Assembly: GCA_003556925.1 (NCBI GenBank)
Contig: PWQC01000010.1
Span: 1 to 14,994, forward strand
DNA length: 14,994 nt
Reading direction: 5' to 3'
Source of the DNA: Candidatus Nealsoniibacteriota bacterium
GTDB lineage: Bacteria > Patescibacteriota > Minisyncoccia > Minisyncoccales > GWA2-38-27
The notes beneath the pieces are model-generated. The model saw only the letters and a list, made by a program, of their open reading frames with translations. It ran no database searches and was not told the DNA's origin. Of the stretch, positions 1 through 13,208 are shown piece after piece (the stretch's first letter is position 1; each line of letters opens with the position of its first letter). The translations under genes and the position numbers were made by a program.

Positions 1-69
1 AATATAGAGGCAGCAATAAAGATTATAGAAGGAACGGCTAAAAATATGGGAATTGAGATTGAGACATGA
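1..69 (+). CDS. rplK: Ribosomal protein L11, C-terminal end only (partial at window edge)
   Basis: The first 69 bases read in frame 1 as 22 residues and a TGA stop. The peptide contains IEGTAKNMGIEIE, which matches the conserved end of bacterial L11 (E. coli ends with IEGTARSMG plus a short tail). L11 belongs to the GTPase-associated centre of the large subunit, with 23S rRNA and L10/L12. The rest of the gene lies before the window. Its stop overlaps the tmk start as ATGA, so the two are probably cotranscribed and translationally coupled. In most bacteria rplA (L1) follows rplK; here tmk does. The assignment rests on a short but distinctive peptide. Confidence 0.85.
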   Translation, partial: NIEAAIKIIEGTAKNMGIEIET

Positions 70-725
70 AAAAAGGCAGTTTCATAGTTTTAGAGGGAAT
101 AGATGGATCGGGCAAGGCGACTCAAGCAAAACTACTGGTTAAATATCTTAAAAAAAATGGGTTCAAGGTAAAAACTATTGACTTTCCCCAATATGGAACA
201 AAGTCGGCCGGCTTGATTGAAGAATATCTTACCGGTAAGTATGGGAAAATAGATGCTTACAAGGCTTCTATTTTTTATGCCGTTGATCGCTATGATGCTT
301 CTTTTAAAATTAAAAAGTGGCTTAAGGAAGGAAACATTGTTATCTCCGATAGATATATTAGCTCTAATGCCGGTCATCAGGGCGGTAAATTAAACAAAAA
401 AGAGAGAAAAAAATACTTTAATTGGCTTTATAATTTAGAATACGGACTTTTTGAGATCCCCAAACCAAAACTTACTATTATCTTGAAAACTTCTCCAAAG
501 CTATCTTATCAGATGTCTGCTCAGGCATCTGAAAGGAAAAAGATATACCTAGGCAAAAAAAAGGATATTCACGAAAAAGACATTAAGCACTTAGAAAGGT
601 CGCTTGAGGCTTATTTGGATTTAGCTAAAAATGATCCCAAGAACTTTAAGGTGGTTGATTGCCTTGAAAAGAACAAGATGATTAGCCCTAAAGAAGTTCA
701 TAAAAAGATAATAAAAATATTATGA
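66..725 (+). CDS. tmk: Thymidylate kinase (dTMP kinase)
   Basis: Phosphorylates dTMP to dTDP with ATP in the cytosol, the step after ThyA. The 219-residue protein has a P-loop at residues 11-17 (GIDGSGK) followed by Ala18-Thr19-Gln20, and the thymidylate-kinase DR motif at 95-100 (DRYISS) followed by a His-Gln pair (HQ, 104-105). A Lys/Arg-rich stretch around 157-170 is in the LID position. Length is normal for the family (about 205-220). The residue after the P-loop lysine is Ala rather than the usual Ser/Thr; I believe GKATQ occurs in other bacterial thymidylate kinases, so it need not mean loss of activity. The start is the ATG of an ATGA overlap with rplK, and the stop makes another ATGA with thyA. 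No clear Shine-Dalgarno is seen, so coupling is likely. Confidence 0.94.
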   Translation: MKKGSFIVLEGIDGSGKATQAKLLVKYLKKNGFKVKTIDFPQYGTKSAGLIEEYLTGKYGKIDAYKASIFYAVDRYDASFKIKKWLKEGNIVISDRYISSNAGHQGGKLNKKERKKYFNWLYNLEYGLFEIPKPKLTIILKTSPKLSYQMSAQASERKKIYLGKKKDIHEKDIKHLERSLEAYLDLAKNDPKNFKVVDCLEKNKMISPKEVHKKIIKIL

Positions 726-1543
726 AAAAATATCTCGATCTTTTAAATTATGTTTTAGAAAGTGGTAACGATAGGCCCGATCGAACGGGTACTGGTACCA
801 GGTCTATTTTTGGTACTCAAACAAGGTATGATCTGTCAGAAGGCTTTCCGGCCGTAACAACTAAAAAATTATTTTTTAATTCGGTAAAAGCAGAACTTCT
901 ATGGTTTATTTCCGGGAGTAGGGACATTGCTGATTTGCATAAAATGAATTGTCATATTTGGGACGCCAACTTTGACGCCGATTATTGGAAAGATAAAAAA
1001 GAATTTGAAACAGACGCAGGGAGGGTTTATGGGGTACAGTGGCGAGATTGGAAAGATTCAGAAAAAAAGAGTACTGATCAGCTAAAACAAGCTATAGAAA
1101 AAATAAAACAAAACCCCTATGATAGAAGAAACATTGTTACAGCTTGGAACCCGGGAGAATTAGATAGAATGGTACTCCCTCCCTGTCATCTTTTTTTTCA
1201 GTTTTATGTAGTAGGCAGGAAGTTATGCTTGCAGATGTATCAAAGAAGTTGTGATCTGTTCTTGGGAGTGCCTTTTAATATTGCTTCTTATTCTTTGCTA
1301 TTGCATATGGTAGCTCAGGTCACCGGGTATGAGCCTGGTGAATTTATTCATGTTATGGGAGATGCCCATATCTATCAAAACCACTTTGAACAAGTAAAAG
1401 AGCAATTAAAACGGAAGCCATATCCCTTACCAAAACTTAAATTAAATAAAGATATTAAAGATATAGACGACTTTACTGAGGAAGATATTGTATTGGAAAA
1501 TTATCAATATCATCCTTCCATTAAAGCCCCCATGGCTGTATGA
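722..1543 (+). CDS. thyA: Thymidylate synthase ThyA
   Basis: Converts dUMP and 5,10-methylenetetrahydrofolate to dTMP and dihydrofolate. The 273 residues cover the whole family length (E. coli 264). Visible signatures are the phosphate-binding Arg21 in RPDRTGTGT, the nucleophile Cys155 in LPPCHLFFQFYV, the Arg175 region YQRSCDLFLG, the dUMP-contacting Asn186 in GVPFN, and the conserved C-terminal tail IKAPMAV, whose last residues close over the active site. All catalytic positions appear intact. It is the folate-dependent ThyA and not the flavin-dependent ThyX, so it needs the dihydrofolate reductase encoded directly downstream. It overlaps both neighbours by four bases (ATGA). Nothing in the sequence suggests its own promoter. 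Confidence 0.97.
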   Translation: MKKYLDLLNYVLESGNDRPDRTGTGTRSIFGTQTRYDLSEGFPAVTTKKLFFNSVKAELLWFISGSRDIADLHKMNCHIWDANFDADYWKDKKEFETDAGRVYGVQWRDWKDSEKKSTDQLKQAIEKIKQNPYDRRNIVTAWNPGELDRMVLPPCHLFFQFYVVGRKLCLQMYQRSCDLFLGVPFNIASYSLLLHMVAQVTGYEPGEFIHVMGDAHIYQNHFEQVKEQLKRKPYPLPKLKLNKDIKDIDDFTEEDIVLENYQYHPSIKAPMAV

Positions 1544-2007
1544 AAATATCAATTATAGCAGCTGTAGATAAAAATTTGCTGATAGGCAAGAAAGATAAAT
1601 TACCCTGGAAAATTCCAGAGGATTTGCAATATTTTAAATTGAAGACTAAGGGAAAATCTGTTATAATGGGTAAAAGTACTTTTTTAGGTCTGCCTGGAAA
1701 ATTAAAAGAAAGAGATTTAATTGTATTAAGTGAAGAAAAACTTGAAGGAGTAAAAACAGCCAATTCTATAGAAAAAGCCTTAGATCTGGCAGATCATAGC
1801 CAAGAAATAATTATAGCCGGGGGAAAAAGTGTTTACGAGCAATTTTTACCCTTGGTTGATAAGATGTATCTTACTTACATTGATCATGAATTTGAAGGGG
1901 ATGTTTATTTTCCTAATTTTGATCAAAGTAAATGGTCGATTATTGAAGAAAAAATAAAACAAACAGACAAATATAAATTAAAATTTGTAACTTATAAAAA
2001 AATATGA
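1540..2007 (+). CDS. folA: Dihydrofolate reductase
   Basis: Reduces dihydrofolate to tetrahydrofolate with NADPH, regenerating the cofactor that ThyA oxidises. The 155-residue protein fits the bacterial type I family (about 160). It shows the N-terminal strand ISIIAAVDKNLLIG, the LPWKIPEDLQYF motif with the catalytic acid at Asp28 (E. coli Asp27), the cofactor-binding VIMGKSTF at 41-48, an Arg58 aligned with E. coli Arg57, which binds the substrate glutamate, and IIIAGGKSVY at 90-99. The loop between MGKSTF and IVLS differs from the usual RxTWESIGRPLPGR form and is one residue shorter than in E. coli. It starts in an ATGA overlap with thyA and ends in another with deoC. This order lets ThyA and its folate-recycling partner be made together. 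Confidence 0.95.
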   Translation: MKISIIAAVDKNLLIGKKDKLPWKIPEDLQYFKLKTKGKSVIMGKSTFLGLPGKLKERDLIVLSEEKLEGVKTANSIEKALDLADHSQEIIIAGGKSVYEQFLPLVDKMYLTYIDHEFEGDVYFPNFDQSKWSIIEEKIKQTDKYKLKFVTYKKI

Positions 2008-2657
2008 AAAAAATAAATCAAACAATAGAGCACACTAATATTAAAAAAAACGCCAAGGCCAAAGACATTAAAAAACTTTGCCAAGAGGCAATTCAATATG
2101 AATTTAGAGCAGTTTGCATTAATCCTGAGTGGGTTAAATTAGCCAGTCAAGAGTTAAAGGGGAGTGGCGTAAAGGTGGTCGTTTTAGTTGATTCTCCTAT
2201 GGGTCTTTCTTCTTCTGTTGAAAGACTAAAAATTTGTCAAAAAATTAAAAAAGACGGAGGGGATGAAATTGACGTAGTGATGAATATTATCGATTTGAAA
2301 TACGGCAGAGAAGATAAAATTTTGAAAGATTTAAAGGCGATTTGTCAGATTCTTCCCACTAAAGTTATTATCGGTTCTGGCTATTTGACCGACGAGGAGA
2401 TAGTTGAAGCCTCTAAAATAGTTAAAAAAGCAAAAGCTATCTGTGTTAAAACGGCTACCGAGGGTGATCCTTTAGAGAATAGAGAGATGAAAGAAAAGGC
2501 TCATCATTTAAAGCTTATGAAAAAAGCGGCGCCTGGTCTTTTAATAAAGGCCTCAGGTAATATTAGAAGTCATGACGATGTAAAAAAGATGATAAAAGCG
2601 GGGGCTGATATTATAGGAACCAGCAGTGGGATAAAAATCGTTAAAGATGCCAAATGA
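2004..2657 (+). CDS. deoC: Deoxyribose-phosphate aldolase
   Basis: Class I aldolase that cleaves 2-deoxyribose-5-phosphate to glyceraldehyde-3-phosphate and acetaldehyde, or runs in reverse. The 217 residues form one TIM barrel of the DeoC family: opening TIEHTNIKK, GDEIDVVMNI with Asp90, the Schiff-base lysine Lys149 in ICVKTAT, and the second active-site lysine Lys182 in IKASGNIRS, followed by the phosphate-binding IIGTSSG. These match the catalytic set Asp102, Lys167 and Lys201 of E. coli DeoC. The usual KTSTGF is KTATEG here, a small departure next to the catalytic lysine. It shares ATGA with folA and overlaps gatB by 11 bases. Placing deoC after thyA/folA suggests salvage or turnover of deoxynucleosides alongside dTMP synthesis. 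Confidence 0.93.
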   Translation: MKKINQTIEHTNIKKNAKAKDIKKLCQEAIQYEFRAVCINPEWVKLASQELKGSGVKVVVLVDSPMGLSSSVERLKICQKIKKDGGDEIDVVMNIIDLKYGREDKILKDLKAICQILPTKVIIGSGYLTDEEIVEASKIVKKAKAICVKTATEGDPLENREMKEKAHHLKLMKKAAPGLLIKASGNIRSHDDVKKMIKAGADIIGTSSGIKIVKDAK

Positions 2658-4065
2658 GTTAAAACCTACAATAGGACTTGAAATACACGTAGAGTTGAAA
2701 ACCGCCTCTAAGATGTTTTGTTCTTGTGTTAATGATGGATTTGAGAAAGAGCCTAATAGTCATGTTTGCCCCATTTGTCTGGGACACCCGGGGACCCTTC
2801 CAACCGTCAACAAAGAGGCAGTTAAAAAGGTAATAAAAACAGGAATAGCGCTTGGCTGTCAAATTCCGGAGTATTCTCAATTTGATCGAAAGAACTATTT
2901 TTACCCTGACATCCCGAAAGGATATCAAATTTCTCAAAATGACTTTCCACTTTGTAAAAAAGGATTTTTATCAATTAATAGAAAAAAGATAAGAATAAGA
3001 AGAATTCATTTAGAAGAAGACACGGGGAAGCTTTATCATGAAAAAGAATCTACATTAATAGATTTTAATAGAGGGGGCGTTCCTTTAATGGAGTTGGTAA
3101 CTGAACCCGATATCGAATCCGGTATAGAGGCCTCTTGCTTTGCTCGGGAGCTACAGACTATCTTAAGGTATCTTGATATCTCTGATGCTGATATGGAAAA
3201 AGGTCAGATGAGGATAGAGGTAAATATCAGTTTAAGCTCTCAAAAAAAGAGGTTGGGGACAAGGGTTGAGATTAAAAATTTAAACTCATTTCGAAGCGTG
3301 GAGAGAGCTATTAATTACGAGATAGAGAGACAAAAAAAAGAAAAAGTTGTCCAAGAGACAAGGGGTTGGGACGAATCAAGCCAAACAACAAAGAGTCAAA
3401 GAAAGAAAGAAGAGGCTCATGATTATAGATACTTTCCAGAGCCTGATATTCCTCCTCTCTCTTCTCGAGAATTTATTGGAGAGATTAAAAATGAGATCAA
3501 AGAGTTACCCCAGGCCAGAAAAGAGAGGTTTAAAAAAGAATACGGAGTTGACGAAAAGATTGCTCGAATTTTTGTTTTAAATAAGGACTTGGGCAATTAT
3601 TTCGAAGAGACGATTAGTGAACTCAAAGAGTGGCAAAAAGCGGGCAAGGGCGATGGAGACGCGCTTAAATTAGCCGTTAATTACTTAATTAGTGATATTC
3701 AAGGGCTTTTAATGGGTAAAAGCATAAAAACAATTCTGATTACTCCCGAAAACTTTGCTGAATTTATCTTTTTGATTTCAGAAAAAAAGATATCCAGTAA
3801 AATTGCTAAGATGATTCTTTTAGAGATGTTTAAAACCGGAGCTGATCCCTCTGATGTAATTGATGAGAAAAAATTACTTGATTTTGATGATCATAAATTA
3901 GAAGAGATCGTTGATAAGGTCATTTTAGAAAATCCTGAAGTGGTAGAGAATTATAGAAGGGGAAAGAAAGAAGTTGTGCAATTTTTAATCGGACAGGTTA
4001 TGAAATTTTCACAAGGAAAAGCTGATCCTCAAAAAACTCGAGAGAGGTTTTTAGAAAAAATTTAA
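2647..4065 (+). CDS. gatB: Asp-tRNA(Asn)/Glu-tRNA(Gln) amidotransferase subunit B
   Basis: Kinase/tRNA-binding subunit of GatCAB, which turns misacylated Glu-tRNA(Gln) and/or Asp-tRNA(Asn) into the amidated forms. The 472 residues are full length for the family. Seen in order: TIGLEIHVEL; a four-cysteine zinc-type site at Cys25, Cys27, Cys41 and Cys44 (CSC and CPIC); NYFYPDIPKGYQISQ; HLEEDTGKL; DFNRGVPLMELVTEPDI; GTRVEIKNLNSFR; and HDYRYFPEPDIPPL. The last roughly 150 residues form the helical and YqeY-like tail used in tRNA binding. gatA and gatC are not in the window, so the complex is encoded at more than one locus. The start at 2647 gives the conserved N terminus. The 3' end overlaps the convergent miaA by 15 bases. 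Confidence 0.97.
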   Translation: MPNELKPTIGLEIHVELKTASKMFCSCVNDGFEKEPNSHVCPICLGHPGTLPTVNKEAVKKVIKTGIALGCQIPEYSQFDRKNYFYPDIPKGYQISQNDFPLCKKGFLSINRKKIRIRRIHLEEDTGKLYHEKESTLIDFNRGGVPLMELVTEPDIESGIEASCFARELQTILRYLDISDADMEKGQMRIEVNISLSSQKKRLGTRVEIKNLNSFRSVERAINYEIERQKKEKVVQETRGWDESSQTTKSQRKKEEAHDYRYFPEPDIPPLSSREFIGEIKNEIKELPQARKERFKKEYGVDEKIARIFVLNKDLGNYFEETISELKEWQKAGKGDGDALKLAVNYLISDIQGLLMGKSIKTILITPENFAEFIFLISEKKISSKIAKMILLEMFKTGADPSDVIDEKKLLDFDDHKLEEIVDKVILENPEVVENYRRGKKEVVQFLIGQVMKFSQGKADPQKTRERFLEKI

Positions 4066-6099: not shown

Positions 6100-7689
6100 T
6101 TAATATATTTTGTCTTTCTGCTCTTTCAAAAAATATCTCCATTGTTCTAGGAATCTGACAAAGCTCAAAAAAGGCATATCTATTAAAGCGCTAAAGGCGA
6201 CCGAAATAACATTATATTTTTTCCATCTTCCTGTTAACCACTTACCAAGTTGAATAATAGGAAGAGCAAAGGGGTCGAGGAGAAGATATAAGGCACTCTC
6301 TCTTTCTTCCGTCATGTGAAGCTCTTTGGCGTTGCTTCTTATCTTCATTCCGGAGAAAGCGATTAAAGAGAGAAAGATTATGAAAATAAAATAAGAGAGG
6401 GGAGGGAAGTTGATCATATAGAGCCCTGCTATGATTAAAGTCAAAAAAATCAAAAAGAAAAGAGAATAGAGAAGAGTAATGGTGCTTTTCATAAAAACGC
6501 TTCTCTTTGGGGCTATCTTAACTTCATAAAGAGGAGGATTGTTGCTTTCATAAATAATTTTCATAGATTCTATTAATACTTTTTCGGCGTTTCCTTCCGG
6601 TGGCGGTTTAATGGTGGCTACTAGTAAAACCATTAAAAAAGTAGGAACTAAGATATCGATAGCGATAGCTATTAAGGGAAAGCCGATTCCCATTAATCTG
6701 GTGATGGGCTGTTCAATGGCCAACAAGGCAATAATGTTGCTTAAAAAAATAGAAGTGGTTGAATAGATAGCGGCCCTTGATAGTCTTTTTTTAAGGGTTT
6801 TTAGTCTCTCATTGTAGGCCGTTTTTAATCCTTTTTCAACTTCTTCGGGCTGATTAAACGTGTCTTTTTTTTTGTCTAAGATATCTCCTATTAATAAAAA
6901 GGGCGTATTGTATTTTTGGCAGACTTGATAAAAGCTGTCTTTTAACTCATGTTCCAGAATTTTTTCGATCTCTTCTTGAATAAGGTATATATTTTTTGCT
7001 AAGTCTTCTTTTTTCCAGTTATGATACTTGTATTTGAAAAGATGGTAGCTGATTATAGGGTTGTCAAGTTTGAAAAGAGCTCTCTGGATAGCAATATATA
7101 GTTGAGTATCTTTATCTTCTTCTTTGATAGGTTTGAAATTAATTACTCCGTCTTGTAGGTATACTCTTTTTTTCATTACAGAAAACATATAATTAATTAA
7201 ACCTCTTTCCTTAGGGGAGGGAGTGAGTATCTCTTCAACTTCACAAGCGATAATAGAGCATAGCCAGTTATATAACTGTATCTTGGATTTTTTGGCTTTA
7301 GAAGGGGAGTTGGCTAAGATAAAGACATATCTATTAAGAACGCCTTGTACTTGTTCAATTTTGTAGTAGGGTATCTTGTCGTTAGGAAAGTGTCCTCCTC
7401 TTATTAATTCTAAAACCAAAGGTTCGCTTTTAAGAGAGAGATTTTTGAGAGATCCGTTAACCGGGTCTATTTGGCTAAAAATCTTTCTTTTTAATGATCT
7501 TTCTGCCGTTGCTCTTTTAAGTAGATGCTCTTCTTTCCAGTCGATAATGCCCCTTATTTTTTCATAAAAAGCGGCTACTCTTGAAGCAACTTCATCAACA
7601 TGAATAGTTTTTTCTTCTTTTTCCGGAGACTCTTCCCAGATTTCATATTTCTTTATTAAAGTTTCTGTTTCGGCTGATAGTCTTGGCAT
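6100..7689 (-). CDS. Uncharacterised four-helix membrane protein with large soluble N-terminal region
   Basis: I do not recognise a named family. The 529 residues split into a charged soluble part (about 1-300, mostly helical, no signal peptide, last stretch rich in Lys/Glu) and a membrane part. Likely transmembrane segments are about 306-325, 332-360, 401-426 and 428-450. A polar loop between the second and third carries KPPPEGNAEK (361-370). After the fourth comes a hydrophobic or amphipathic tail with LDPFALPIIQLGKWLTGRWKK and a Trp/Phe-rich, basic end. I see no catalytic motif, P-loop or cysteine pair. My impression, from memory only, is that similar C-terminal segments occur in unnamed CPR membrane proteins. 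The gene sits between thrS (34-base overlap) and miaB (one-base gap), so it is coexpressed with translation genes. The ATG at 7689 is the only obvious start; no Shine-Dalgarno is seen. Confidence 0.85.
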   Translation of the reverse strand: MPRLSAETETLIKKYEIWEESPEKEEKTIHVDEVASRVAAFYEKIRGIIDWKEEHLLKRATAERSLKRKIFSQIDPVNGSLKNLSLKSEPLVLELIRGGHFPNDKIPYYKIEQVQGVLNRYVFILANSPSKAKKSKIQLYNWLCSIIACEVEEILTPSPKERGLINYMFSVMKKRVYLQDGVINFKPIKEEDKDTQLYIAIQRALFKLDNPIISYHLFKYKYHNWKKEDLAKNIYLIQEEIEKILEHELKDSFYQVCQKYNTPFLLIGDILDKKKDTFNQPEEVEKGLKTAYNERLKTLKKRLSRAAIYSTTSIFLSNIIALLAIEQPITRLMGIGFPLIAIAIDILVPTFLMVLLVATIKPPPEGNAEKVLIESMKIIYESNNPPLYEVKIAPKRSVFMKSTITLLYSLFFLIFLTLIIAGLYMINFPPLSYFIFIIFLSLIAFSGMKIRSNAKELHMTEERESALYLLLDPFALPIIQLGKWLTGRWKKYNVISVAFSALIDMPFLSFVRFLEQWRYFLKEQKDKIY

Positions 7690-9383: not shown

Positions 9384-12300
9384 CTACTCTTTATTTATGA
9401 TTTCTTCAATACCTTCGGCTATGATCTGCAGATCTCCGTTTCTTTTACTTATCTTTCCTTTAAGGAATACTATCTTTCCCTCTTGTAGAGAATCATGGCT
9501 TTGAGCGGTTAGCTTGGGGAAGCAGATTACCTCTATCTTTTCACTTAAGTCTTGAAATTTTACAAAGAGCATAGCATCACCCTTTTTGGTATTTATCTTT
9601 TTAACGGAGTCGATAATTCCACCCATGGTAACTGTTCGATTCAGCATTAGATGAGTTATTCTTTTGATGGGGAAGCACTTCTTTTCTAATAAACCCTTAA
9701 GATCGTCTAAAGGATTAGCACTAACATAAAGACCCAATAACTCTTTTTCCCACTTTAATCTCTCTGCTTTTTTACTTACTTCCACCTCTTCTAATATAAT
9801 CTTATTATTAAAGTCTTTTTCTTGGTCAAAGAGGCCTGTCTGTCCATTTTCTTTTAATTTTGTCTTTTCTCTGGCATATTCCAGTATTTTTTCTATATTA
9901 TGTAAAAATAGATTTCTTTCTCCCAAATCATCTAAAGCACCTGCCTTTATAAGGCTTTCCAGCGACTTTTTATTCATATTTTTAGATCCTATTCTTTGGG
10001 CAAAATCAGCGATAGAAGTGAATTGACCACCTCTCTTTCTTTCTTTGGCGATTATTTCTGCGATGTTTTCTCCCACATTCTTAATAGCCAAAAGACCAAA
10101 TCTTATCTGTCTTTTTTCAGGAACTACGGTAAAGTTTTTTAAGCTTTCATTTACAGAAGGGGGAAGTACTTCTACTTTCATCTTTTCACACTCTTGGATT
10201 AAGAAGGCGATTCTTTCGGTATTAGTCTTTTCAGAAGTAAGCAGGGCTGCCATAAATTCAACTGGAAAATGAGCCTTTAGGTATGCGGTTTGATAGGCAA
10301 TCTTGGCATAGGCGCAAGAGTGGGCCCGATTAAAGCCGTAACTGGCGAAAGGAAGAATCCACTCCCATATTTTTTTGGCCACTTCCTTTGGAATCTGATT
10401 ATCTATTGCTCCGTCAATAAACTTTTTTTCCAAACTGTTTAACAGCTCTTTTATCTTTTTACCAACCGCTTTTCTTAAAATATCAGCCTCTTCTAAAGAG
10501 AAACCGGCCAATTGCTGGGCTATCTGCATCAGCTGTTCTTGGTATAAGATGATGCCGTAAGTGTTTTCCAGAATTGGCTTGAGCTTTGGATGGACATATC
10601 TTATCTCTTCTTTTCCGTGTTTTCTCTTGATATAGGTGGGAATAAGTTCCATCGGTCCGGGTCGATAGAGGGCGATCATAGCGTCTATATCCTCAAAACG
10701 GGTTGGCTCTAATTCTTTTAAATATCTTTTCATCCCATCGCTTTCAAGCTGAAAGATACCGGTTGTTTCTACTCTTCTGAAAAGATCAAAGGTTTTTTTG
10801 TCGTTTTCCGGGATATTGTCGATCTCTATCTTTTTCCCTTGAACGACATATATCCTAGATAGTGTATCTTCTATTATGGTTAGGTTTTTTAATCCCAATA
10901 GGTCCATTTTCAAAAGACCCAACGATTCAACTGCATACATATCATATTGGGTAACGATACTGTCATCTCCTTGAGTTGGATATTGTAGGGGAATATGCTC
11001 TGTTAAGGGAAGTTTGGAAATTACTACTCCACAAGCATGAGTGGAGGCGTGGCGTGCCACTCCTTCCAGCTTCTTTCCAAAATCGATAATAGTCTTTGCT
11101 TGATCATTGCTTTGATAGATCTCCTGAATTTCTTTCACCTCTTTTAAAGATCTACTTAAAGAAAAACCAAAGGGAATCATTTTAGCCAATTTATCACAAA
11201 AGTCATAAGGATATTGCAGGGCTCTTCCGACATCTCGGATGACTACTCTTGAGGCCATAGTACCAAAGGTAATTATTTGAGATACCTTATCTCTTCCGTA
11301 TTTTTGAGCAACATAGTTTATTACTTCTTCTCTTCTTCGATCGGTAATATCCAAATCAATATCAGGTAGACTGCCGGTCCGGCCAGGATTTAAGAACCTC
11401 TCAAAGATAAGCTGATACTTCATCGGATCTACGTTAGTAATATTTAAAAGGTAAGAAACTATAGAGCCACCGGCGGATCCACGACCCGGTCCAATGATAA
11501 TTCTTTGTTCTTTGGCCCAGTTAACAAAATCTTGCACGATTAGAAAATAGGAAGAGAATCCCAATTTAGAGATAACAGAGAGTTCATAAGAGAGTCTCTC
11601 TTTTATCTCTTTTCCTGCTTTTTCATATTTCTTTTTAATTCCTTCTTCGCAGAGTTTTTTTAGATAAGAATCAGCTGTCTCTTTTTCGGGAACCTTGAAA
11701 TAAGGAAGTTTTATCTTTCCCAGATCGAAATCAAAGTTGCAAGCGCGAGCTATCTTTTCAGTGTTTTTAAAAGCCTCGGGAACTTCTTTACAGAAATCTT
11801 TCATCTTTTGAGGATGGGTCATTGATAAATCATCACCCTTTAAACTTAATCTTTCTGGATTATTTTTGTCGGCGCCGGTATTGATAAGCATTAAGACATC
11901 TTGAGCTTCTGCATCTTCGCTGTTTAAATAATGGATATCGTTAGTGGCCACCAAAGGGATGGCTGTTTTTTTTGCCAGCGCTATTATTTTTTTATTAACG
12001 AGAATTTGATCTTTGTTATTTGGATGATTTTGAATTTCTAAATAGAAATTATCTTTACCAAAGATTTTTTGATATATTTCAGCCGCTTCTTGGGCTTCTT
12101 TGTCTCTTTTAGCTAAATACATTTGAGGGACTTTTCCTTGCAAACAGGCAGAGAGGGCGATCAATCCTTCGGCGTGTTCTTTTAATAATTCTTGATCAAT
12201 TCTTGGTTTATAATAAAAGCCCTCAAGGTGGGCTTTAGTTACCAGATTAACCAGATTCTTATACCCTTTTTCGTTTTTCGCCAAAAGAATTAAATGATAT

Positions 12301-12554
12301 CTTTTATCGTCAATCCCCGGTCTCTTCTGATCCATCCTCCCAACTGCTTCATAAAGTTCGCAGCCGATAATCGGCTTTATTCCTCTCTCCTTGGCTTTCT
12401 TGTAAAACTCTACTGCCCCATACATGACGCCGTGATCGGTTAAAGCTAAAGATTCCATGCCACACTCTTTAGCTTTATCTAAAAGCTGGTCTATCTTTGC
12501 TAAACCGTCTAAAAGAGAGAAGTGGCTGTGAACATGTAGGTGAGTAAACTTCAT
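9384..12554 (-). CDS. dnaE: DNA polymerase III alpha subunit with intact PHP domain
   Basis: Replicative DNA polymerase, C family, DnaE1-like. The PHP domain (1 to about 270) has all nine metal ligands when aligned by eye with the proofreading M. tuberculosis DnaE1: His7, His9, Asp16, His41, Glu66, His87, Cys137, Asp206 and His208. The Pol3 core has GPGRGSAGGS at 355-364, PDIDLD at 397-402 with catalytic Asp398 and Asp400, and the third Asp551 in KMDLLGL. Then come a helix-hairpin-helix region near 820-835, an internal sliding-clamp motif QTGLF at 905-909, and an OB fold at about 973-1050. The protein stops right after the OB fold at 1056 residues (E. coli 1160), so the tau-binding C-terminal domain is missing or minimal. 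No intein is seen. It is the first gene of the minus-strand operon. Confidence 0.97.
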   Translation of the reverse strand: MKFTHLHVHSHFSLLDGLAKIDQLLDKAKECGMESLALTDHGVMYGAVEFYKKAKERGIKPIIGCELYEAVGRMDQKRPGIDDKRYHLILLAKNEKGYKNLVNLVTKAHLEGFYYKPRIDQELLKEHAEGLIALSACLQGKVPQMYLAKRDKEAQEAAEIYQKIFGKDNFYLEIQNHPNNKDQILVNKKIIALAKKTAIPLVATNDIHYLNSEDAEAQDVLMLINTGADKNNPERLSLKGDDLSMTHPQKMKDFCKEVPEAFKNTEKIARACNFDFDLGKIKLPYFKVPEKETADSYLKKLCEEGIKKKYEKAGKEIKERLSYELSVISKLGFSSYFLIVQDFVNWAKEQRIIIGPGRGSAGGSIVSYLLNITNVDPMKYQLIFERFLNPGRTGSLPDIDLDITDRRREEVINYVAQKYGRDKVSQIITFGTMASRVVIRDVGRALQYPYDFCDKLAKMIPFGFSLSRSLKEVKEIQEIYQSNDQAKTIIDFGKKLEGVARHASTHACGVVISKLPLTEHIPLQYPTQGDDSIVTQYDMYAVESLGLLKMDLLGLKNLTIIEDTLSRIYVVQGKKIEIDNIPENDKKTFDLFRRVETTGIFQLESDGMKRYLKELEPTRFEDIDAMIALYRPGPMELIPTYIKRKHGKEEIRYVHPKLKPILENTYGIILYQEQLMQIAQQLAGFSLEEADILRKAVGKKIKELLNSLEKKFIDGAIDNQIPKEVAKKIWEWILPFASYGFNRAHSCAYAKIAYQTAYLKAHFPVEFMAALLTSEKTNTERIAFLIQECEKMKVEVLPPSVNESLKNFTVVPEKRQIRFGLLAIKNVGENIAEIIAKERKRGGQFTSIADFAQRIGSKNMNKKSLESLIKAGALDDLGERNLFLHNIEKILEYAREKTKLKENGQTGLFDQEKDFNNKIILEEVEVSKKAERLKWEKELLGLYVSANPLDDLKGLLEKKCFPIKRITHLMLNRTVTMGGIIDSVKKINTKKGDAMLFVKFQDLSEKIEVICFPKLTAQSHDSLQEGKIVFLKGKISKRNGDLQIIAEGIEEIINKE

Positions 12555-12589
12555 TAGACCATTCTACTTTTTTTTAAAATTTCCGTCAA
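12555..12589 (-). promoter_or_regulatory. Sigma70-type promoter for dnaE operon, predicted leaderless
   Basis: Reading the minus strand, TTGACG (12589-12584) and TAGAAT (12566-12561) are separated by exactly 17 bases; each matches the sigma70 consensus at five of six positions. Six bases (GGTCTA) separate the -10 element from the dnaE ATG at 12554, which puts the expected transcription start on the A of the start codon. No Shine-Dalgarno precedes the ATG, as expected for a leaderless mRNA. The -35 lies inside the spacer of the rnhB promoter on the other strand. Confidence 0.7.
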
Positions 12590-12608
12590 ATTATGTTATT
12601 ATACATTG
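12574..12608 (+). promoter_or_regulatory. Extended -10 promoter for rnhB, predicted leaderless
   Basis: On the plus strand TTAAAA (12574-12579) and TATTAT (12597-12602) are 17 bases apart. TG at 12594-12595 followed by one base makes an extended -10 (TGn), which would compensate for the weak -35. Six bases (ACATTG) separate the -10 from the ATG at 12609, the same distance as for dnaE, so transcription is expected to begin at the start codon. Its elements interleave with those of the divergent dnaE promoter. Confidence 0.6.
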
Positions 12609-13208
12609 ATGTTAAAAGAAGAAAGAAGGGCATGGAAAAAAGGTTTTAAGAGAGTGGCTGGACTGGACGAAGTCGGCCGAGGTTCTTTGTCTGGTCCGGT
12701 GGTAGCGGCAGCGATTATTATCGACCCATTAGTCAACCTTAAAAAATTTAAAGAAGTAAAAGATTCTAAAAAATTATCTGTCCGAAAAAGAGAATATTAT
12801 TATAATCTGATTATTAAAGATTCTTTTATCGAATGGAAGATAATTGCTCTTTCAGAAAAAAAGATAGACAAGATTAATATTTTAGAAGCAACTAAAAAAG
12901 CTATGAAAAAAGCAGGTGAGGAATTAAGGGCAGACTTTTTAATTATTGACGGTAATTTCACTCTTAAAAGAAAGCTTCCTCAAAAATCAATTATTAAGGC
13001 CGATGAAAAAGTTTTGTCATGTACCCTTGCCTCAATTTTGGCTAAAGTTTTTAGAGATAGATTAATGGAGAAGTATGATAAAAAGTATCCATTATATAAT
13101 TTTAAGAGCAATAAGGGCTATCCGACCAAAGAGCATTATCAACTAATTAAGAAACATAATACCTGTTTAATTCATCGGCAAAGCTTTACTCTTTATAAAA
13201 AAGAGTGA
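12609..13208 (+). CDS. rnhB: Ribonuclease HII
   Basis: Cleaves the RNA strand of RNA-DNA hybrids and starts removal of single ribonucleotides from DNA. The 199-residue protein shows the RNase HII signature AGLDEVGRGSLSGPV, with catalytic Asp20 and Glu21 and the GRG motif at 23-25; KDSKKLS at 51-57; Asp114 in LIIDG; Asp132 in KADEKVLS followed by ASILAKVFRD; and NKGYPTKEH near the end. The four-acid active site is therefore complete. I chose the ATG at 12609 over the TTG three bases earlier because ATG is the stronger codon and lies six bases after a good -10 element. It diverges from dnaE, so a replication polymerase and a repair nuclease share one control region. Confidence 0.95.
   Translation: MLKEERRAWKKGFKRVAGLDEVGRGSLSGPVVAAAIIIDPLVNLKKFKEVKDSKKLSVRKREYYYNLIIKDSFIEWKIIALSEKKIDKINILEATKKAMKKAGEELRADFLIIDGNFTLKRKLPQKSIIKADEKVLSCTLASILAKVFRDRLMEKYDKKYPLYNFKSNKGYPTKEHYQLIKKHNTCLIHRQSFTLYKKE

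Follow-up and report, generated by a model that had tools for sequence, protein, structure and literature searches.

The window analyzed here, a stretch of 14,994 nucleotides, is contig C39 of a genome bin of 335,519 bases that is 61% complete, and the closest named relatives of this genome are one Candidatus Paceibacterota genome and several Nealsonbacteria genomes. Two of its genes, both predicted to be leaderless, form a divergent pair: dnaE, encoding DNA polymerase III alpha (positions 9384-12554, minus strand; 1056 aa; NCBIfam NF005298, 1395 bits against a cut-off of 1260), and rnhB, encoding RNase HII (12609-13208, plus strand; 199 aa; NCBIfam NF000595, 206.9 bits against a cut-off of 167). 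The gap between them measures 54 bases (12555-12608) and runs from the dnaE ATG (complement of 12552-12554) to the rnhB ATG (12609-12611). On the dnaE side the gene run consists of dnaE, thrS, an unnamed gene, a miaB family gene and miaA, and on the rnhB side of rnhB, rpmF (named by eye), nusB, rnc and rpsP; the promoters in the gap probably feed these two runs of core genes, each over a presumed operon extent. Between thrS and the miaB family gene, a 529-aa protein (6100-7689, minus strand) had no NCBIfam match at E <= 1e-20, and at 66-4065 on the plus strand lie genes that overlap by 4-11 bases and resemble tmk, thyA, folA, deoC and gatB (named by eye).

A first-pass annotation had read this gap, which holds both promoters on its two strands, as a pair of interleaved divergent promoters, and every hexamer, spacer and extended TGn that it named was found to the base. 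The dnaE promoter (minus strand) consists of a -35 element TTGACG (12584-12589), a 17-base spacer and a -10 element TAGAAT (12561-12566), and that of rnhB (plus strand) of a weak, putative and probably non-essential -35 TTAAAA (12574-12579), again with a 17-base spacer, and an extended -10, TGt-TATTAT (12594-12602), in which TGt occupies 12594-12596 and TATTAT 12597-12602. Both -10 elements end exactly six bases before the ATG of their gene, as the annotation had said, which places the predicted transcription starts at 12554 (minus strand) for dnaE and 12609 (plus strand) for rnhB. The interleaving can be read directly from the sequence: the dnaE -35 sits between the putative rnhB -35 and the rnhB -10, and the promoters thus overlap, while the two -10s are separate elements and not one shared symmetric -10. 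An in-frame TTG at 12606, just ahead of the rnhB ATG, offers an alternative start that would lie 3 bases from the -10, but the distance at which the rnhB -10 recurs in relatives is 6-7 bases.

To follow the gap through relatives, we collected 111 loci (L001-L111, L001 and L002 being the window itself), which gave 100 distinct dnaE loci after removal of repeats, and 34 distinct loci, window included, had a divergent rnhB within 400 bases of dnaE. The same-genus genome G001, whose DnaE N-terminus is 84% identical to that of the window, has a gap of 53 bases that reads TTGACT-17-TAGAAT-6-ATG on the dnaE side and TGaTATTAT-6-GTG on the rnhB side; it keeps both -10s, that of dnaE being identical, and both six-base distances, many other positions of the gap differ, and its rnhB would start on GTG. 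The putative rnhB -35 is not kept as such. Judged by these two gaps, what is conserved for rnhB is its extended -10, because the rnhB -35 is weak and its best match in G001 is TTTAAA with a 16-base spacer. Only two genomes of the genus were comparable at this gap, since the third, G002, has a dnaE match of just 39% identity; this match, together with a near-complete S1 match, points to possible contamination of G002.

Among the 34 gaps, an extended -10 (TGnTA...T, at least 4 of 6, with the same start-codon freedom in all bins) lies 6-7 bases before an ATG or GTG of rnhB in 17, and each of the other 21 two-base bins holds 0-2, which suggests that leaderless rnhB is widespread in order-level relatives. 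For dnaE, no peak at 6-7 bases appeared across the same gaps (5 of 34, vs 6, 7, 7 and 8 in the next bins), nor across the 99 distinct loci with enough upstream sequence (18 vs 14, 14, 14 and 15 in the next four bins), and a called -35/-10 promoter at exactly six bases was found in L001, L003 (the G001 locus) and L075. Alignment of the gap across relatives, which had been proposed as a check on the claim that both mRNAs are leaderless, thus bears out the -10 and its distance for rnhB in 17 of the 34 gaps; for dnaE it does so at the two genus loci, L001 and L003, and since the relatives show no 6-7-base peak, support for a leaderless dnaE stops at the genus.

These data raise the possibility that rnhB alone is leaderless, and that dnaE is transcribed from a different start with a short leader, or owes its -10 position to a functionless accident of the lineage. 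The missing dnaE peak would fit this, as would the TTGACT-17 promoters that lie 15-35 bases from the dnaE ATG in L022, L025, L038, L054, L066 and L071; however, TTGAC(G/T)-17-TAGAAT (TTGACT-17 in G001) ends exactly six bases before the ATG in both members of the genus, and when seven gaps are aligned, a TAAT that several relatives have close to their predicted start falls on the TA-ATG of the genus. We therefore consider a leaderless rnhB beside a leadered dnaE unlikely. The same alignment match suggests that the dnaE start codon may have moved onto the transcription start, for example through loss of the leader. At the level of sequence, the leaderless mRNAs predicted for this gap are well supported.

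The distance signal is not restricted to this locus. The genus sample comprised 21 stretches of the genome of the window (G000; 174,474 bases, window included) and 20 stretches of G001 (289,765 bases), with genes called by the longest-ORF rule and the first ATG as start; start errors arising from this calling blur the genus-wide distance signal. A first distance profile was biased, as TAA/TAG stops upstream of the first ATG and in frame with it raise the counts at distances 0, 3, 6, 9 and so on, and it was redone with the pattern TA[TC]NWT, a TG-extended pattern and an internal-ATG control. Before 180 heads of transcription units in the two genus members, a -10 at 6-8 bases occurred in 42%, where control distances averaged 8%, and a TG-extended -10 at exactly six bases preceded 21 of these heads (mean 0.59 at distances 16-49). 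Across 13 sampled genomes of the order the latter count was 42 of 734 heads (mean 2.24), and without the genus 21 of 554 (mean 1.65). Operon-internal starts showed a small excess (6 of 599, mean 0.85), and internal ATGs gave 0 of 1538 at distance 6, with 10 at 7, 7 at 1 and 7 at 13 as a codon-phase effect. By genome, the distance signal was strong in G000, G001 and G005 and near background in G010, G011, G078 and G084.

Operon-internal genes of the genus are preceded by an A-rich stretch and no Shine-Dalgarno (SD) motif, and SD-like motifs before heads stand at background in both members (G000, 0.11 vs 0.09; G001, 0.05 vs 0.05). In some order relatives they rise above background, highest in G013 (L180-L184; 0.32 vs 0.07), so SD use has not been lost evenly across the order.

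Divergent pairs with a -10 at 6-7 bases on both sides recur in the genus as well, in 2 of 14 pairs in G000 (controls 0 and 0) and 6 of 20 in G001 (controls 0 and 1), together 8 of 34 (controls 0 and 1 of 34); in the 13 order genomes there were 8 such pairs among 117, all within the genus (controls 0, 1 and 0). Besides dnaE/rnhB in both genomes, they comprise rpsF with an unnamed gene in G000 (L112) and smpB/ileS, cysS/dnaX, pth/signal peptidase, ruvA/uvrB and one unnamed pair in G001 (L136, L139, L141, L142 and L149), and the predicted starts of the eight pairs lie 54, 55, 56, 57, 62, 76, 88 and 330 positions apart. Thus, the dnaE/rnhB gap, as predicted, is one instance of a recurrent layout of the genus, and this layout is not specific to dnaE and rnhB because other divergent pairs repeat it.

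In the window (L001) and in L003, L022 and L054, the predicted starts are 54-55 positions apart, a spacing at which polymerase footprints, of the size that we take them to have, would overlap, and two polymerases probably cannot occupy the gap together. From the interleaving of the two promoters the first-pass annotation had concluded that expression of the two genes is mutually exclusive at any moment, which as a regulatory device would be a true switch, in which polymerase on one promoter silences the other and dnaE and rnhB are expressed in turn. This step is not supported, since excluding binding is not excluding expression. Predicted promoter overlap is common among relatives, but its size is variable: the starts are 58, 61 and 64 positions apart in L025, L066 and L071 and 38, 35 and 23 in L073, L075 and L076, and several of the 34 gaps are longer than 100 bases. 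Unrelated gene pairs have similar overlaps, and at five bidirectional promoters of E. coli, whose starts are separated by no more than 10-23 bp, basal transcription one way left the other way unaffected, although repression of one direction could follow when the opposite one was strongly activated (PMC12825309). For these reasons we give a switch very little credence and rejected it as the main reading. Competition for polymerase at the gap is plausible from the geometry, and between the dnaE and rnhB promoters it is probably weak; leaderless expression together with genome compaction would explain the layout better than a dnaE/rnhB switch.

That the elements are chance A/T matches in an A+T-rich gap, with the true promoters elsewhere or differently spaced, is hardly credible: promoter-like sites in the window are no commoner than in shuffles (46 vs 39.1 +/- 5.9) and the rnhB -35 is not conserved, but in a shuffle test devised after the claim was known a -10 stood six bases from both gap ends in only 19 of 20,000 dinucleotide-preserving gap shuffles (and in none of the 20,000 once both -35s, matching at 4 of 6 or better, were required too), and conservation in G001 and, for rnhB, in half of the 34 gaps, like the genome-wide tests, is independent of that test. 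A bare promoter scan, with its site count equal to chance, was rejected as evidence. The annotation had also singled out the six-base symmetry as the sign that lifts the gap above chance; the position is indeed rare in the shuffles, but the argument from symmetry is weak, because the dnaE distance of six is confined to few lineages while the rnhB distance is widespread.

Leaderless initiation raises the question of the anti-SD sequence. A strict pattern for the 16S 3' end matched 74 of 196 order genomes, and the other 122 gave no match; all 74 tails were read (among them loci L205-L234 and L275-L305), and CCUCC (CCTCC in the DNA) is absent after helix 45 in 73. The sole exception, G091 (G091:C43), may be a contaminant, because its helix-45 sequence differs from the rest and the contig measures just 3,255 bases. 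Variant tails occur in G005 (TCTCC) and in L223 and L226 (CCTCA). The 16S search of the window's own 61%-complete bin gave no match, nor did the strict pattern match the 16S end of G013; the 16S of the same-genus G002 is without CCTCC. In a class sample of 383 genomes, 59 were matched by the pattern, 40 of them outside the order, and 28 of these 40 keep CCTCC and 12 are without it. The proposal that both genes would be translated without anti-SD pairing is therefore supported by the 16S ends of order relatives. As separate observations, the 16S matches of L157 (G017:C6) and L158 (G002:C29) span about 2.5 and 2.1 kb, so these genes probably contain insertions, and G388:C15 (family f52) carries the 16S tail of the order genome G139, a possible contamination.

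The idea that leaderless use follows from the loss of CCUCC was considered and found no support, as the peak is also seen in CCUCC-keeping families (of 188 heads, 7 at a distance of 6 bases and 6 at 7 bases, mean 0.53); because these families also show little SD enrichment, the leaderless signal and CCUCC loss are not tightly linked. Loss of ribosomal protein bS21 was weighed as a possible cause. Its family (PF01165, E <= 0.001) matched 19 of the 25 genomes that keep CCUCC, 7 of the 8 from outside the order that do not, and 6 of the 21 from the order itself, where none of the six matches passed the PF01165 cut-off and the remaining genomes had no match. IF3 passed its cut-off in all 15 genomes searched, and all 15 have S1-like matches that stay below the rpsA cut-off, so neither factor separates the CCUCC groups.

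Our data suggest a model, which we regard as likely, whereby the gap holds compact, divergent and overlapping housekeeping promoters, each producing a transcript from the A of the start codon, and the resulting leaderless mRNAs are translated without SD pairing. A sigma-70-type RNA polymerase would bind either promoter, relying on TTGAC(G/T)-17-TAGAAT for dnaE and on the extended -10 (TGnTATTAT) for rnhB. Each RNA, having the A of its start codon as first base, would have no 5' leader, and the ribosome would initiate on the 5'-terminal AUG without SD pairing, in a lineage mostly without the 16S CCUCC; at the genes further along each run, several of them abutting or overlapping, initiation would be A-rich or coupled. 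On a broader scale we propose, tentatively and with somewhat less than even confidence, that this order of Patescibacteria works largely without SD/anti-SD pairing, that many of its core genes are started on the start codon and that about a quarter of the sampled divergent pairs of the genus are doubly leaderless. As these pairs are leaderless on both sides and most lie within 54-88 bases, one short DNA element would set both promoter strength and translation start, and there may be competition for polymerase between adjacent core operons.

How a ribosome recognizes a start codon when SD pairing is absent is an open question, and the gap provides predictions at the level of single bases (12554 and 12609). 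It also offers an evolutionary contrast, in that a similar dnaE promoter appears to have a leader in relatives and to be leaderless in the genus of the window, and the order nearly without CCUCC beside CCUCC-keeping families of the same class is a natural comparison. In the open-access papers covered by our searches we found no report of leaderless usage in Patescibacteria or the Candidate Phyla Radiation, no transcript map bearing on it, and no report of order-wide CCUCC loss or of double-leaderless divergent promoters.

Several known systems resemble parts of this picture. Many bacteria have leaderless ('TA-led') genes, whose -10 lies some ten bases ahead of the start codon, and the genes described here share with them this position, the TG-extended form and the occurrence at single or first operon genes; the abstract of PMC3160421, however, names Actinobacteria and Deinococcus-Thermus as richest in 'TA-led' genes, whereas ours are from Patescibacteria, where most relatives are without CCUCC and where some divergent pairs are predicted to be leaderless in both directions. 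With the bidirectional promoters of E. coli the gap has in common divergent transcription from one short stretch and possible polymerase competition, but those promoters share a symmetric -10 and start 10-23 bp apart, and here the -10s are separate and the predicted starts 55 positions apart; separate divergent promoters are not classed as bidirectional in the text of PMC12825309 available to us. Loss of CCUCC is already listed for Absconditabacteria, Campbellbacteria, Peregrinibacteria and Wolfebacteria (PMC10783764, Table 4), the terms 'candidate', 'Parcubacteria' and 'CPR' are absent from the main text of PMC6107228, and Era, which binds the CCUCC sequence, is lost in most members of the Candidate Phyla Radiation according to the part of PMC10582724 consulted. 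The resemblance to the bacteria without a CCUCC anti-SD in PMC10783764 and PMC6107228 lies in readable 16S 3' ends of the order that are without this motif and, in the genus of the window, in SD-scarce genes; the loss published there concerns one or two organisms per group, whereas here it extends to nearly all readable 16S ends of an order and to 12 of 40 elsewhere in its class.
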